A stretch of 64,000 nucleotides of DNA from Apilactobacillus xinyiensis (GTDB taxonomy: Bacteria > Bacillota > Bacilli > Lactobacillales > Lactobacillaceae). The first letter of the stretch is position 1; every line of letters starts with the position of its first letter. The DNA lies in NCBI RefSeq assembly GCF_019656235.1, contig NZ_BPLL01000006.1:1-64000 (forward strand). The letters run 5' to 3'. The notes below the pieces were generated by a model. It was not told where the DNA came from and ran no database searches. It saw nothing but the letters and a program-made list of their open reading frames with translations. Made by a program: the position numbers and the translations under genes. Positions 40,121 to 47,220 of the stretch are shown here, one piece after another.

Positions 40121-40187
40121 TTAAAGCCATCTTTACTTTATACAATTTACGTGAGAAAATATATATTGTCTTATTTAAATTGTATAT

Positions 40188-40260
40188 GACTCCATAGCAC
40201 AACGGGATAGGGCGACCGCCTCCTAAGCGGCTGATCTCGGTTCGAGTCCGAGTGGAGTCA
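40188..40260 (+). tRNA. tRNA-Arg (anticodon CCU)
   Basis: A 73-base cloverleaf with acceptor GACTCCA/TGGAGTC, anticodon loop CTCCTAA (anticodon CCT, reading AGG), T-arm CTCGG-TTCGAGT-CCGAG and discriminator A. CCA is not encoded. Two stem positions are non-canonical: A12-G23 in the D stem and A27-C43 at the base of the anticodon stem. The rest is well formed. Confidence 0.95.
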
Positions 40261-40281
40261 TAAAATGAAAATCAACAGAAT

Positions 40282-40327: not shown

Positions 40328-40386
40328 TTTACATAAACAATACATAAAAATTATAGTTTATTTACGTTAGTTTGATATCTTATAAG
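40328..40386 (+). promoter_or_regulatory. PhoP-type box array and promoter of the first pstS
   Basis: Four TTTACA-like half-sites recur at exactly 11-bp steps: TTTACA 40328, AATACA 40339, ATTATA 40350 and TTTACG 40361. A -10-like TATAAG follows at 40381-40386. This is the layout of Firmicutes PhoP boxes, in which dimers bind the same DNA face. An off-phase TTTACT at 40316 may extend the array. Confidence 0.75.
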
Positions 40387-40416: not shown

Positions 40417-41271
40417 ATGAAAAGACTAGCATATTTATTTTCAATAGTTGGCATTTGTATTTTATTTTTAGCTGGTTGTAACAATAAATCTAATTCCAAA
40501 GAGGTAACAGCTGTAGGATCTACCGCTTTACAACCTTTAGTAGAGCAAGCTGCTGAACAATATGATAGTAAGTCTAACGGTAAAATTACCGTGCAAGGTG
40601 GCGGTTCTGGTACAGGACTTAGTCAAGTATCGCAGGGTTCTGTGTCAATTGGAAATTCAGATATTTTTGCTAATCATCAGTTAGGAATTGATGCTAAAAA
40701 GCTTTTAGATCATCAAGTAGCAGTTGTTGGAATTGCTCCCGTTACCAATAAAGATGTTGGAGTTACTAACTTATCAACTAAACAATTAAAAGCTATTTTT
40801 ACTGGTAAGATAACCAATTGGAAACAAGTTGGCGGTAAAAGCCAAAAAATCGTTGTAATCAATCGAGTAAAAGGAAGTGGAACTAGAACCACTTTTGAGA
40901 ATGCTATACTTGGTAATCAATCATCTGTAAATACTCAAGAACAAGATTCAAATGGAACTGTGAAAAAAATATTATCTAAAACCCCAGGATCAATTAGCTA
41001 CCTGTCTTTTTCATTTTTAGACAAAACATTGCAACCTTTATCTATAGATAATATTTATCCAAATAATAAAAATGTTACTAATAACAAATGGAAAATATGG
41101 TCTTATGAACATATGTATACACAGACAAACCCTAGTAAAGAGGCTAAAGAGTTCATTAAATATTTGCAATCTAAAAAAATTCAAAGTACTTTAGTTAAAA
41201 AATTAGGTTACATTAGTATTCATGACATGAAAGTTATAAAAAACTCAGATAATACAGTAATTAAAAAATAA
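40417..41271 (+). CDS. pstS: phosphate ABC transporter substrate-binding lipoprotein PstS (first copy)
   Basis: Extracellular phosphate receptor of the high-affinity Pst system. The 284-residue product has a lipoprotein signal with lipobox LAGC (Cys21), then phosphate-binding motifs GSTALQPL (about 34-41), GGGSGTGLSQV and NRVKGSGTRTTFE. It is closely similar along its length to the next gene, so it looks like a tandem duplicate. It has its own PhoP array and terminator, so it can be expressed separately. Confidence 0.95.
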   Translation: MKRLAYLFSIVGICILFLAGCNNKSNSKEVTAVGSTALQPLVEQAAEQYDSKSNGKITVQGGGSGTGLSQVSQGSVSIGNSDIFANHQLGIDAKKLLDHQVAVVGIAPVTNKDVGVTNLSTKQLKAIFTGKITNWKQVGGKSQKIVVINRVKGSGTRTTFENAILGNQSSVNTQEQDSNGTVKKILSKTPGSISYLSFSFLDKTLQPLSIDNIYPNNKNVTNNKWKIWSYEHMYTQTNPSKEAKEFIKYLQSKKIQSTLVKKLGYISIHDMKVIKNSDNTVIKK

Positions 41272-41274
41272 TAA

Positions 41275-41309
41275 AAGAGGTTTCTGGCACTAGCTAGAAA
41301 CCTTTTTTT
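41275..41309 (+). terminator. terminator between the two pstS genes
   Basis: AGGTTTCT pairs with AGAAACCT around a small GC-containing loop and is followed by T7. Confidence 0.85.
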
Positions 41310-41315
41310 AAATAA

Positions 41316-41374
41316 TTTACAAAAAATTTACAAAAAAATCATAATGAATTTACACTAGTTTGTTAAATTAATAA
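41316..41374 (+). promoter_or_regulatory. PhoP-type box array and promoter of the second pstS and pst operon
   Basis: TTTACA recurs exactly at 41316, 41327 and 41349, all multiples of 11 bp apart, with a degenerate copy (ATCATA) at the missing step 41338. A -10-like TAATAA lies at 41369-41374, the same distance from the last box as in the first array. Two matching arrays before the two pstS genes argue strongly for PhoP-type control. Confidence 0.8.
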
Positions 41375-41408
41375 GCATATTAGTACGAGAAATTTATGGA
41401 GGCTTATT

Positions 41409-42272
41409 ATGAATAACAGATTAATTCATTTTATATCTGCATTAGGAATCTTAATTTTATTTTTAACTGGTTGTTCATCTAATAATGGATCTAAGTCCAA
41501 AGAAATTACTTCTGTGGGGTCAACCGCTTTACAACCATTGGTTGAACAAGCAGCTCATCAATATAGTACAGAAAAAGGTTTAACAATTAATGTGCAAGGT
41601 GGCGGTTCAGGAACTGGATTAAGTCAAGTTTCACAAGGAGCCGTTAATATTGGAAATTCAGATGTTTTTGCTGATAAACAAACTGGTATTGATGCTAAAA
41701 AATTAACTGATTATAAAGTAGCGGTAGTTGGTATTACACCAGTTGTTAATAAAGGGGTAGGGGTTAAAAATATTTCTTTTAAACAACTACGTGATATATT
41801 TACAGGAAAATTTACTAATTGGAAACAGTTAGGTGGCAAGAATCAAGAAATTATTGTAATTAATCGAGTAAAAGGAAGTGGAACTAGAAACACTTTTGAA
41901 TCATCCGTTTTAAATGGTGAAAAAGCTTTAAATGCTCAAGAACAAGACTCAAATGGAACTGTTAAACGAATAGTATCTAGTACTCCTGGAGCAATTAGTT
42001 ATCTATCATTTTCTTTCTTAGACAATACTCTTCAACCACTTTCAATTGATGGAGTTAAACCAGAAGATAAGAACGTTGAGGATAATTCTTGGAAAATATG
42101 GTCTTACGAACACATGTACACTGCTAAGGATGCTAAAAAGAATGTAAAAGACTTTATTCAATATTTACAATCTAAACCAACACAAGATGGGTTAGTTAAA
42201 AAACTTGGATATATTAGTATTCATGATATGAAGGTTGTAAAAAGTTCAGATAATGTTGTTACTAAAAAATAA
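41409..42272 (+). CDS. pstS: phosphate ABC transporter substrate-binding lipoprotein PstS (second copy)
   Basis: The 287-residue paralogue of the preceding gene has lipobox LTGC (Cys22) and the same phosphate-binding motifs (GSTALQPL, GGGSGTGLSQV, NRVKGSGTRNTFE). The two C-termini are nearly identical (KKLGYISIHDMKVVK). It leads the pstCAB1B2-phoU operon. Duplicate receptors may differ in affinity or in the induction level set by their boxes. Confidence 0.95.
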   Translation: MNNRLIHFISALGILILFLTGCSSNNGSKSKEITSVGSTALQPLVEQAAHQYSTEKGLTINVQGGGSGTGLSQVSQGAVNIGNSDVFADKQTGIDAKKLTDYKVAVVGITPVVNKGVGVKNISFKQLRDIFTGKFTNWKQLGGKNQEIIVINRVKGSGTRNTFESSVLNGEKALNAQEQDSNGTVKRIVSSTPGAISYLSFSFLDNTLQPLSIDGVKPEDKNVEDNSWKIWSYEHMYTAKDAKKNVKDFIQYLQSKPTQDGLVKKLGYISIHDMKVVKSSDNVVTKK

Positions 42273-42295
42273 TAGTATTGCGAGGTAAAGCAACG

Positions 42296-43228
42296 ATGAA
42301 AAATAGCTTAAAGGAAAAATTTTTATCTCCTTCCAAACAAACTTATCAAGAATCATTTGGAAAGATAATATCTTCTTTTTGTATTTTAATAATTATTGCA
42401 TTAGTAGTTTCTATATTAGGATTTGTGACTACTAAGGGAATTGATACTTTTACACAGAGTAAGATAAACGTTTTTGATTTTCTATTCGGTAATGTTTGGA
42501 GCCCATCTTCAACGGGAGCTAATGGTAAACCAGAAGTTGGTGCAGCACCAATGATTGTGACTTCATTTACTGTAACTTTAATTTCAGCAGCCATTGCTAC
42601 ACCGTTTGCAATTGCTTGTGCTATCTTCATGACTTTTATTGCAAATAACCGAGGCAGCCGTTTGTTAAGATCAACGATTGAATTATTAGTAGGAATTCCA
42701 TCTGTTATATATGGATACATTGGATTAACACTGGTTGTGCCACTAGTTAGAAGTATTTATGGTGGAACTGGATTTGGTATTTTAGCAGGTGCAATTGTTT
42801 TATTCGTAATGATTTTACCGACTGTGACTTCATTAACAGTAGATAGTATTAAATCAGTACCTGATTATTACATCAAAGCATCTTATGGTTTAGGTGCTAC
42901 TAGATGGCAGACTATTTATAAAGTAGTCTTAAAAATTTCATTACCAGGAATATTAACTGCGGTAATTTTTGGAATGACTAGAGCTTTTGGTGAAGCCTTA
43001 GCAGTACAAATGGTAATTGGTAACTCTATTACAATGCCTACTAATCTAACTACACCTGCTTCAACCTTAACTAGTCAACTGACTACTGGAATTGGAAATA
43101 CTATCATGGGAACTCTACAAAATAATGCATTGTGGTCACTAGCATTAGTGCTATTGTTTATGTCATTGTTCTTCAATATTTTAATTAAGATTATTGGTAA
43201 ACGAGGTGCAGCTAAATATGAATCCTAA
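42296..43228 (+). CDS. pstC: phosphate ABC transporter permease PstC
   Basis: Membrane permease subunit of Pst. The 310-residue product has about six transmembrane segments and the binding-protein-dependent permease loop SYGLGATRWQTIYKVVLKISLPGI (about 202-225). I use ATG 42296, with GAGGT 9 bases upstream, instead of the in-frame TTG at 42278. It overlaps pstA by 11 bases. Confidence 0.96.
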   Translation: MKNSLKEKFLSPSKQTYQESFGKIISSFCILIIIALVVSILGFVTTKGIDTFTQSKINVFDFLFGNVWSPSSTGANGKPEVGAAPMIVTSFTVTLISAAIATPFAIACAIFMTFIANNRGSRLLRSTIELLVGIPSVIYGYIGLTLVVPLVRSIYGGTGFGILAGAIVLFVMILPTVTSLTVDSIKSVPDYYIKASYGLGATRWQTIYKVVLKISLPGILTAVIFGMTRAFGEALAVQMVIGNSITMPTNLTTPASTLTSQLTTGIGNTIMGTLQNNALWSLALVLLFMSLFFNILIKIIGKRGAAKYES

Positions 43229-44111
43229 ATCAGTTAATCGTATTGCAACTACAGTAATTAATTCTTTAGTTGGAGTAGTTGTAGCTTTATTAGTATTATT
43301 AATTTCATATATTTTAGTGACAGGCTTGCCACATATGTCATTAGATTTCTTACTCTCACCATCACAATCTTATCAAGCTGGGGGAGGAATTAGAGATCAG
43401 TTATTTAATTCTATCTACTTGGTAATATTAACGTTAATTATATCTTTTCCAATTGCTTTAGGAGCTGGTATTTATTTAGCAGAATATGCCCCTAAAAATT
43501 GGATCGTAGATGTTATTAGAACCTTGATTGAAGTTTTAAGTTCATTACCTTCAGTGGTGGTAGGATTATTTGCTTACCTAGTTTTCGTTATTAAATTTCA
43601 GGTTGGCTTTTCAATCATATCGGGAGCTGTAGCTTTAACTATTTTTAACTTGCCACTTCTAACTAGAAATATTGAAGATTCAATTAAGTCTGTACCAGAT
43701 TTTCAAATGCAAGGTGCATTAGCTTTAGGATTATCAAAGTGGACTACAATTATTAAAATAATTTTTCCTTCAGCCATTCCGGGAATTATAACAGGGATTA
43801 TTTTAAGCTCTGGAAGAATTTTTGGTGAAGCAGCAGCTTTAATATACACATCGGGTCAAAGTGCCCCTGTTTTAAACTACGCTAATTGGAATCCATTTAG
43901 TCCGGATAGTTTTCTAAATCCGATGCGTCCAGCAGAGACCTTAGCAGTTCATATTTGGAAAGTTAATTCTGAAGGAATTACTCCAGATGCAAACGCTATT
44001 TCTAGTGGTGCTTCAGCAGTATTAATTTTAGTTATCATTTTGTTCAACTTCTTTGCACACTGGATAGGTAAGAAGTTATATAAGAAATTTACAGTTGGGG
44101 AAGTGAAATAA
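43218..44111 (+). CDS. pstA: phosphate ABC transporter permease PstA
   Basis: Second permease subunit. The 297-residue product has about six membrane segments and the EAA-like loop ALALGLSKWTTIIKIIFPSAIPGI. ATG 43218 lies inside the end of pstC with GAGGTG upstream; the longer in-frame start at 43194 would overlap the same binding site. Its last base overlaps the ATG of the first pstB, so the subunits are translationally coupled. Confidence 0.96.
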   Translation: MNPKSVNRIATTVINSLVGVVVALLVLLISYILVTGLPHMSLDFLLSPSQSYQAGGGIRDQLFNSIYLVILTLIISFPIALGAGIYLAEYAPKNWIVDVIRTLIEVLSSLPSVVVGLFAYLVFVIKFQVGFSIISGAVALTIFNLPLLTRNIEDSIKSVPDFQMQGALALGLSKWTTIIKIIFPSAIPGIITGIILSSGRIFGEAAALIYTSGQSAPVLNYANWNPFSPDSFLNPMRPAETLAVHIWKVNSEGITPDANAISSGASAVLILVIILFNFFAHWIGKKLYKKFTVGEVK

Positions 44112-44908
44112 TGCAAAAGTATGATTTGAGCAAATCGTATGTAAAAGAAGTAAACTCAAATATTGCCCTAGAGACTGATCAATTAAGTGTTTTTTATGGC
44201 AAAAAGCAAGCTACCTATGATATTAGTCTTAAAATACCCAAACACAGTATTACAGCACTAATTGGTGCTTCTGGTTCTGGTAAATCAACTTATTTGCGCT
44301 CCTTAAATCGAATGAATGAAAATGGAAATACAAATGTTAAGGGTAAAATTATTTATGAAGGAATTGATATTAACAGCTCTAAAGTAAATGTATATGAAGT
44401 TAGAAAACATATTGGAATGGTTTTTCAAGAACCTAATCCATTTGCTAAATCAATTCGCGGCAATATTACCTTTGCCTTAAAAAATCATGGAATTAAAGAC
44501 AAAAAAGTTCTTGAAGAACGGGTAGTTAGTAGTTTAAAACAAGCTGCTATCTGGGATGAAGTAAAAGACCATTTAGATGATAGTGCAATGTCTTTATCAG
44601 GAGGACAAAAGCAAAGACTTTGTATTGCTAGAGCAATTGCAATGCAACCAGATATATTATTACTAGATGAGCCAACTAGTGCTTTAGATCCGGTATCGAC
44701 TGGTAAAATAGAAGAAACTTTAAGAGAATTAAAAAAGAACTATACAATTATTATAGTTACACATAATATTCAACAAGCATCTAGAGTTAGTGACTATACT
44801 GCTTTTATGCATTCAGGACATCTATTGGAATACAACGACACTAATTCAATTTTTAACAATCCAGAAATGCAGATTACTAATGATTACATTTCAGGACACT
44901 TTGGATAG
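44111..44908 (+). CDS. pstB1: phosphate ABC transporter ATPase PstB (first copy)
   Basis: ATPase of the Pst importer, 265 residues. Walker A is GASGSGKST (about 53-61), the Q-loop sits in FQEPNPFAKSI, the signature is LSGGQKQR, Walker [13 protein letters not shown] and the H-loop THN. Compared with the second copy it has an N-terminal extension of about 17 residues. Two pstB genes in tandem are common in lactobacilli. Confidence 0.96.
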   Translation: MQKYDLSKSYVKEVNSNIALETDQLSVFYGKKQATYDISLKIPKHSITALIGASGSGKSTYLRSLNRMNENGNTNVKGKIIYEGIDINSSKVNVYEVRKHIGMVFQEPNPFAKSIRGNITFALKNHGIKDKKVLEERVVSSLKQAAIWDEVKDHLDDSAMSLSGGQKQRLCIARAIAMQPDILLLDEPTSALDPVSTGKIEETLRELKKNYTIIIVTHNIQQASRVSDYTAFMHSGHLLEYNDTNSIFNNPEMQITNDYISGHFG

Positions 44909-44922
44909 TAAGGAGATTATAA

Positions 44923-45678
44923 ATGGGTAAAATACTAAGTACTAAAAATTTACGTTTATACTATGGAAAATCTGAAGCTTTACATGGAATTAGTTTAAAA
45001 TTTTTAGATGGTGAAATTACAGCATTAATCGGCCCATCGGGTTGTGGTAAATCTACCTATTTAAGATGTTTAAATCGTATGAATGATTTATTAGACAACG
45101 TAACGATTACGGGAACTATCAAGTTACAAGGAAAAGATATTTATTCACCTAAGATGTCTAAATCAGAAATTCGCAAAAAAATTGGAATGGTTTTCCAACA
45201 ACCCAATCCATTTCCATTCTCTATCTATGATAATGTAGCTTACGGTCCAAGAATATCAGGAGTTAAAGATAAAAAAGTACTAGATGAAATTGTAGAAACT
45301 AGTTTAAAAAAAGCTGCAATTTGGGATGAAGTAAAAGATGATTTAAAGAAAAATGCGGTTGCTTTATCCGGTGGACAACAACAAAGAGTTTGTATTGCAC
45401 GCACTTTAGCAGTTAATCCAGATGTCATTTTACTAGATGAACCTACCAGTGCTTTAGATCCCATTTCTAGTGTCAAAGTAGAATCCACACTTATGGACAT
45501 TAAAAAAGACTACAATATTATTTTAGTTACACATAATATGCAACAAGCATCTAGGATTTCTGATAAAACTGCATTTATGCTGAATGGACGCTTAATTGAA
45601 TTTGATAAAACAGAAAAAATGTTTTTAAATCCAGAAAATAAAATAACTAGTGACTATTTGAATGGTCGCTTTGGCTAG
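44923..45678 (+). CDS. pstB2: phosphate ABC transporter ATPase PstB (second copy)
   Basis: The 251-residue product has Walker [10 protein letters not shown] (about 35-43), [11 protein letters not shown] at the Q-loop, signature LSGGQQQR and Walker [22 protein letters not shown] and the NPFPFSI segment are the more classical PstB forms. It follows the first copy by 14 bases and precedes phoU by 14. Confidence 0.96.
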
Positions 45679-45692
45679 AAAGGTGATGCGTT

Positions 45693-46430
45693 ATGGCGAA
45701 AAAATTTACCGAAGAATTAAAGAAATTGCAAAATAATTTTATCTCAATGGGAATTGATGTTAACGAAGAGATATATCAAGCTACTAAATTATTTTTAAGT
45801 TCTAATCATGCTGATAAAAACATTGTTTCTAATCAAGATAAAAATGTTAATCAAAAAGAAGTTAACTTAGAAGAACAAGCTTTAAACTTAATTGCTTTAC
45901 AACAACCAGTAGCCAATGACTTTAGAGAAATTATTTGTATTTTAAAAGCTAGTTCTGATTTAGAAAGAATTGGAGACCATGCAGCATCAATTGCTAACGA
46001 AGCTGTACATTTAAAAGCTGTAATTCAAAATCCTGATGTTGAAAGAATTATTACTCAAATGTCACTTAAAGTTAGGACGATGCTAGAATCGTTCTTAAAT
46101 TCTTACTATCACAATGATAGTTATGAATCCAGAGTTATTGCACAAGAAGATATTTTGGTCGATAAATATTTTGTTCAAGCCCGTAAGTTAATTATGCAAG
46201 AAGCTGAAGAACATGATTTAGCTATTGATGCTTTATACAATTATCTAAGAGTTATTAGATTACTTGAAAGAATTGGTGATCACATTGTTAATTTAACTGA
46301 ATGGATTTTATATCGTAATTCAGGTGAATTAGTAGAATTAAATCCGGGTAAAATTGAACCAGATTTAGTGAGAAGAGATTTGGAAAAAAATAAAAATAAT
46401 GGTTTAATAGATGATAAAGACAATCAATAA
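45693..46430 (+). CDS. phoU: phosphate signalling protein PhoU
   Basis: PhoU is a helical, metal-binding regulator that links Pst activity to the PhoR-PhoP sensor in other bacteria. The 245-residue product shows the two three-helix repeats, each with a conserved acidic motif: ERIGDHAASIANE (about residues 91-103) and ERIGDHIVNLTEW (about 192-204). It is slightly longer than usual because of a charged C-terminal tail. The absent kinase raises the question what it signals to here. Confidence 0.95.
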   Translation: MAKKFTEELKKLQNNFISMGIDVNEEIYQATKLFLSSNHADKNIVSNQDKNVNQKEVNLEEQALNLIALQQPVANDFREIICILKASSDLERIGDHAASIANEAVHLKAVIQNPDVERIITQMSLKVRTMLESFLNSYYHNDSYESRVIAQEDILVDKYFVQARKLIMQEAEEHDLAIDALYNYLRVIRLLERIGDHIVNLTEWILYRNSGELVELNPGKIEPDLVRRDLEKNKNNGLIDDKDNQ

Positions 46431-46456
46431 CTTTCTAAATCAAAGAGGTGTTAATT

Positions 46457-47176
46457 TTGAAAACGGTTCTTCTTTTGACTAACCAATTGCACTTAGCATT
46501 AAAAATAAGTTCGGCTGGAAATAAACGAAATATATTTATTAATAATGTTAGTCAATTTGATAAAGTCACTTCTTTGTTAGATAGCTATGATTTTGCTGCC
46601 TTTATAATTGATTTAAACCTTTGGAAAACGACTACTGCAGCGCTAAAAAGTATTGATTCTTTAAAACAAGATTACAATGTGCCGTTTGTTGTTTTTAAAG
46701 ATAAACTAACTAATGATGAACAATCTGCTATATATGAACATCATCTTGATGATTTTGTTTATCAGCCAATTGATGCTGAAGAAATAATTATTAGAACCAT
46801 TCATTGGATTAATAATTATGCTAAATTTAGCATTAATACACATAAAAAAAAGAAAAAAGATATTAAAACTTTTAACAATTTCGTAGTTAACCTAAAAAAT
46901 TTCAAAATTATCTATAATGATGTTGATTTAGAACTAACGCCCAAAGAATTCCATTTAATGTATTTTTTAATTCAACAAAGCAATCAAGTATTAAGTAGGG
47001 AACAGATATTTAATGGTGTTTGGAAGAGTGATAATGATGGGGATTCTTATATACCATCAAGAATTGTTGATATTCACATTAGTCATTTAAGAGACAAAAT
47101 TAATGAAGTTAAAAAAGATGATAACGTTAATATTGAAACTGTTAGAGGATTTGGATACTTACTTAAAAACAAATAA
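46457..47176 (+). CDS. OmpR/PhoP-type response regulator with degenerate receiver
   Basis: A 239-residue protein with an N-terminal receiver-like domain (about 1-115), a lysine-rich linker (HKKKKKDIK) and a C-terminal winged-helix DNA-binding domain with LELTPKEFHLMYFLI and RIVDIHISHLRDKI, ending RGFGYLL. The likely phospho-acceptor Asp52 remains (IIDLNLW), but the acidic pair after strand 1 is replaced by Thr8-Asn9 and the conserved Lys of KPF is Gln103. I use TTG 46457, with GAGG 8 bases before. No histidine kinase is adjacent. It is the best local candidate to bind the PhoP boxes. Confidence 0.88.
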   Translation: MKTVLLLTNQLHLALKISSAGNKRNIFINNVSQFDKVTSLLDSYDFAAFIIDLNLWKTTTAALKSIDSLKQDYNVPFVVFKDKLTNDEQSAIYEHHLDDFVYQPIDAEEIIIRTIHWINNYAKFSINTHKKKKKDIKTFNNFVVNLKNFKIIYNDVDLELTPKEFHLMYFLIQQSNQVLSREQIFNGVWKSDNDGDSYIPSRIVDIHISHLRDKINEVKKDDNVNIETVRGFGYLLKNK

Positions 47177-47210
47177 AAAAGAGCTTAGTTATAAAACTAA
47201 ACTCTTTTTT
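47175..47210. terminator. bidirectional terminator after the pst locus
   Basis: AAAAAAGAG-TTAGTT pairs with AACTAA-CTCTTTTTT with one unpaired position on each side, and serves the converging sugar transporter gene as well. Confidence 0.9.
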
Positions 47211-47220
47211 ATTTGTTGAA

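Follow-up and report, generated by a model that had tools for sequence, protein, structure and literature searches.

An orphan pseudo-receiver regulator at the end of the pst operon of Apilactobacillus xinyiensis: a probable phosphorylation-independent alternative to PnpRS in Lactobacillaceae

Orphan OmpR-type regulators beside pst genes are on record for two lactobacilli. Zuniga et al. 2011 report Lreu_1569 of L. reuteri and LAF_1230 of L. fermentum, and place both within the Pho group, on a long branch (PMC3040137). The main text of that paper mentions neither a degenerate receiver nor an operator, and gives no wider distribution. A literature search, with supplements and most subscription papers outside its reach, found no other paper naming either gene by locus tag and no description of the pseudo-receiver, operator or family considered here; according to a 2024 study (PMC11084836), the pst operon had yet to be studied in Lactobacillaceae. 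The gene described below is likewise an orphan OmpR regulator beside a pst cluster, but is situated downstream of phoU, whereas the Lreu_1569/LAF_1230 type is divergent from pstS. With PnpR/PhoP of Lactobacillaceae and Streptococcus it shares the location at pst, a TTTACA array, the promoter geometry and a similar recognition helix; what the orphan regulator lacks, and PnpR has, is a complete receiver and PnpS as its partner. In the pneumococcus, the PnpR Pho box (TTTACACAATCTTTACA) lies 92 bp before pstS1 (PMC4913102).

Regulators with pseudo-receivers are known in other pathways, where their control is largely unknown (PMC12632262). In actinobacterial GlnR, Asp50 together with Thr9 and Arg52 supports the homodimer in the unphosphorylated state (PMC10704036). 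Comparison with the GlnR sequence (PDB 4o1i) shows that both regulators are orphans with a Thr at the first acidic position and a retained Asp (T8 and D52 in the A. xinyiensis protein). GlnR differs in its pathway, its DNA target and its Arg at D+2, a position held by Asn54 in A. xinyiensis and by Arg in one of 39 aligned members of the orphan family. ChxR, HP1043 and RitR are also OmpR-family orphans that lack active-site residues, but none has been described as taking over a phosphate two-component operator. RitR depends on a Cys in its linker, whereas the translation of the A. xinyiensis gene contains no Cys at all, which rules out a RitR-type redox switch. There appears to be no precedent for a pseudo-receiver regulator that took over such a phosphate operator in 11 genera.

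The window, that is, the whole 64,000-nucleotide stretch of A. xinyiensis DNA analysed here (contig NZ_BPLL01000006.1), comes from a genome of 1.45 Mb that is rated 99.95% complete. It contains the following pst operon and flanking element:

40417..41271, forward strand: first pstS, with its own operator and promoter (TIGR02136, 265 bits)
41409..42272, forward strand: second pstS, with its own operator and promoter (TIGR02136, 261 bits)
42278..43228, forward strand: pstC (TIGR02138, 268 bits)
43194..44111, forward strand: pstA (TIGR00974, 260 bits)
44111..44908, forward strand: pstB, first copy (TIGR00972, 380 bits)
44923..45678, forward strand: pstB, second copy (TIGR00972, 399 bits)
45693..46430, forward strand: phoU, directly upstream of the regulator (TIGR02135, 174 bits against a cut-off of 130)
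46457..47176, forward strand: orphan OmpR-type regulator of 239 aa with a TTG start (identified by its open reading frame, PF00486 and active-site residues), comprising a pseudo-receiver (residues ~1-124), a linker (125-138) and a winged helix (139-239)
47169..47216, strand not assigned: terminator-like hairpin between the regulator and the convergent rbsU

The gene order is pstS-pstS-pstC-pstA-pstB-pstB-phoU-RR, followed by the convergent rbsU; the regulator closes the operon, as a preliminary description of this DNA had stated. An AGAGG motif stands just 5' of the TTG at 46457, and relatives have an ATG at the homologous codon, making this a better start than the GTG at 46448. A. ozensis DSM 23829, a close relative, shares 80% identity in the regulator protein. 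The first pstS is separated from a DEAD-box helicase gene by a tRNA-Arg gene (anticodon CCT; 40187-40261). The gap between the tandem pstS genes (41272-41408) contains a hairpin followed by a T run.

The two domains of the regulator differ sharply in how well they match their families. The winged helix passes the PF00486 model with 79 bits (cut-off 26.2), whereas the receiver reaches only 14.7 bits against the PF00072 cut-off of 30.2, though a profile of the orphan family does pick up receivers of known structure (7e-10). Aligned to PnpR of Latilactobacillus curvatus, the active site reads T8-N9 at the acidic pair, D52 at the phospho-acceptor Asp, K81 at the Thr and Q103 at the Lys, such that four of the five canonical residues differ and only D52 is kept. 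The earlier reading, that the protein retained its DNA-binding domain and a candidate phospho-Asp52 but had lost the acidic pair (Thr8-Asn9) and the conserved lysine (Gln103), is upheld in each of these respects, and K81 is a further loss that it had not listed. The A. ozensis protein still has Lys at position 103; Q103 is thus species-specific. The recognition helix of the orphans is 65% identical to that of PnpR vs 42% to that of WalR. A structure model, built from the window protein and two other loci (L013 and L014), is poor (pLDDT 64) and gives no basis for judging a dimer; a PDB fold search matched generic OmpR regulators.

No partner kinase was found for this regulator in its own genome. 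Its neighbours are phoU and rbsU, and no kinase gene adjoins it, in line with the preliminary description, which had further remarked that phoP-phoR pairs usually adjoin pst; this is the case in the genome contexts read. That description had also set a genome search for phoR and a canonical phoP as a test that could refute it, and no such pair was found in this nearly complete assembly. The genome contains five OmpR regulators, and each of the other four adjoins a HATPase_c kinase, one of these pairs being WalRK by NCBIfam. No kinase in the genome exceeds the PnpS or PhoR cut-off; the best match to the PnpS model is WalK, below a cut-off that the PnpS encoded beside pst in L. curvatus does pass. 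A hidden PhoPR elsewhere in the genome was considered and rejected, since the regulator, kinase and PnpS-model searches gave none. When the PnpS model was run against 40 genomes, those with only the orphan regulator give a single long match of the WalK type, and most with a pst-adjacent PnpRS give a second, shorter PnpS-like match.

Both pstS promoters in the window carry TTTACA arrays with 11-bp phasing, located as follows:

40328..40366, forward strand: operator of the first pstS, with three mismatches to the array, 11-bp phased, 50 nt before the ATG
41316..41354, forward strand: operator of the second pstS, a perfect TTTACA-N5-TTTACA-N16-TTTACA, 54 nt before the ATG

The first part of this array matches the pneumococcal PnpR Pho box. 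The operator of the second pstS is the sole match in the genome with up to two mismatches, and the counterpart of the first-pstS operator in A. ozensis has two mismatches. At three mismatches the genome gives 27 matches vs 20 for a reversed-pattern control, which is near the control level. A large regulon in this genome was therefore rejected, the only close array match being at the pst operon. In a first sample of relatives, the array was present at 0-1 mismatch in 15/15 orphan loci and in 18 of 21 PnpRS loci with pst, and in a wider sample it preceded pst in 31 of 33 orphan loci (L182 and L191 lack a near-perfect copy), compared with none of the eight sampled genomes having neither the orphan regulator nor a PnpS-like second kinase; these counts are phylogenetically clustered, and the PhoU tree gives four independent contrasts, all in the expected direction but not significant. 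Two loci with an array and no adjacent regulator belong to genomes that encode a PnpS-like kinase elsewhere. In orphan and PnpRS lineages alike, a -10 element lies ~9 nt behind the last box and a -35 element is absent; such a layout is, on its predicted elements, that of an activator-dependent promoter.

A second likely target was found outside pst. In five other Apilactobacillus genomes (G004, G005, G006, G014 and G015; loci L227-L231), a perfect operator stands 45 nt before the start of a gene for a secreted histidine phosphatase (PF00300). The phosphatase is likely a second phosphate-scavenging target in those genomes, and no PnpS was found in the Apilactobacillus members tested. The window genome has a distant homologue of this phosphatase, with no operator match at up to three mismatches.

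The orphan regulators form a distinct family of wide distribution. A family profile separates them from PnpR and other paralogues (at least 265 bits vs at most 174), and relatives are found in 91 of the 401 Lactobacillaceae genomes, spread over 11 of 40 genera; among 398 genomes sampled across the order, matches at E values up to 1e-52 are confined to Lactobacillaceae. The L. fermentum gene that is divergent from pst (L128) is a family member. The orphan regulator is not a peculiarity of one genome and is probably a family-wide alternative to PnpRS. In the contexts read, the gene adjoins pst in all but one case, whether behind phoU, divergent or in front. The exception (L193, genome G314) has the regulator divergent from phoU, with no pst adjacent; two TTTACA boxes precede this phoU, and the pstB copies are ~200 kb away. 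Two genomes (G018 and G029) combine a PnpRS cassette with a second pst that has an orphan regulator.

An alignment of 39 members shows no change at the Asp and only Thr or Ser at the first acidic position, whereas the second is never Asp and is Glu in one; the Lys is lost in 34 and the active-site Thr/Ser in ~60%. In a full-length tree the orphans form a single clade (100/100) on a long branch apart from all others. A tree of the DNA-binding domain rejects as clades neither the orphans alone nor the orphans plus PnpR (p-AU 0.32 and 0.37, respectively).

Within Apilactobacillus, the regulator gene is conserved in place and constrained in sequence. It is present in 15 of 16 genomes and, in the neighbourhoods read, lies between phoU and rbsU at the same end of the operon; the sixteenth genome (G003, rated 99% complete) gave no match for the regulator, phoU or pstB. 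Among pairs whose dS is not saturated, the receiver has a dN/dS of 0.11-0.20 and the DNA-binding domain one of 0.02-0.09. Change is faster in the receiver than in the transporter genes, and its mean identity between genera is 26%, but these ratios indicate that it is under purifying selection and not free to drift. A decaying gene was considered and rejected on the grounds of dN/dS and synteny.

We consider it probable that the regulator is a phosphorylation-independent, GlnR-like activator of the Pho regulon that replaced PnpRS. Binding to the array and action without PnpS, which we infer, are well supported by sequence. The earlier suggestion that the protein works without phosphorylation gains from the loss of the acidic pair in 39/39 members and the retention of the PnpR operator, and stands as a reading of sequence. 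According to this model, the pseudo-receiver would be unable to take phosphate in the normal way and would serve as a dimer module, in which D52 is no phospho-acceptor but, together with the Thr/Ser at position 8, may hold the receiver dimer-competent as Asp50 and Thr9 do in GlnR. Dimerisation would then proceed through a GlnR-like T8-D52 contact, which we infer by analogy. The winged helix is predicted to bind the PnpR-type array standing in place of the -35 element at the pstS promoters and thereby to activate pst. Positive autoregulation would follow because the regulator gene is the last in the operon that it activates. Phosphate input might come from protein contact with Pst-PhoU or from dosage; this step is a conjecture.

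As a rival, a constitutive activator would sense no phosphate at all, with its level set by its own operon and PhoU controlling transport activity only. Such dosage-only control is a serious rival, even if we regard the constitutive reading as rather unlikely. The regulator gene sits within its own target operon, the cassettes of one genus have no phoU, and many regulators of the pseudo-receiver type are active upon synthesis (PMC12632262). Conversely, the receiver remains attached and under purifying selection, which pure DNA binding would not need, and the second target is a secreted phosphatase, an enzyme usually wanted only in phosphate shortage.

Phosphorylation might also persist in residual form, the signal being slow modification of D52 by a non-cognate kinase or acetyl phosphate. 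The invariance of this Asp in all 39 members is what would be expected, and substitutions at the DD, T or K positions need not abolish phosphorylation fully (PMC12632262). This reading is nevertheless improbable: the acidic positions are unfit for metal binding in 38 of the 39, the Lys and active-site Thr/Ser are widely lost as given above, the only PnpS-like kinase of orphan-only genomes is WalK, and GlnR shows that an Asp may be kept for another reason. Quite improbable, too, is a repressor that blocks the pstS promoters from the array until phosphate runs short. The last box is close to the -10 element, and binding alone gives no sign of its effect. However, in PnpRS lineages and the pneumococcus it is an activator that works with the same geometry, and RNA polymerase should need help at promoters without a -35 element. 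Very improbable is a relic that decays after loss of its kinase while another regulator, e.g. WalR, binds the arrays: the receiver does diverge widely between genera and changes faster than the neighbouring genes, but its dN/dS is low, the one genome of the genus without the gene also lacks phoU and pstB, arrays are missing from genomes with WalRK and neither PnpS nor the orphan, and the recognition helix resembles that of PnpR, not WalR.

Sequence points to an operator for the regulator, to its likely targets (pst and, in some relatives, the secreted phosphatase) and to phosphate as the expected signal, and sister genera with the kinase-dependent version and the same operator offer a clean natural comparison. 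The case also touches on the way in which PhoU and Pst signal: should the regulator respond to phosphate without PhoR or PnpS, a kinase would not be needed for Pho signalling. More tentatively, a kinase-free switch may operate across much of Lactobacillaceae, with PnpRS replaced or doubled by a pseudo-receiver under direct Pst-PhoU control, in which case a transporter would signal to DNA without phosphotransfer. A link between PhoU and the regulator, which the preliminary description had put forward along with the Pst complex as a possible route, is speculative. It is favoured because the PhoU proteins of orphan cassettes form approximately one clade and because the regulator of G314 is accompanied by phoU only. 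This clade is separate from PnpRS-type PhoU even within G029, where the PnpRS-pst-phoU cassette (L102) and the pst-phoU-orphan cassette (L182) encode PhoU proteins of different clades. The whole cassette is co-inherited, however, and PstA shows much the same clade pattern. In genus g4 (L178, L179, L180 and L197), the cassette consists of pstS-C-A-B and the orphan regulator without its own phoU, and cassette PhoU is therefore not an obligatory partner; the g4 genome G018 additionally carries a PnpRS-pst-phoU cassette. In two further orphan cassettes (L113 and L188), the pst genes are flanked on either side by a phoU gene.
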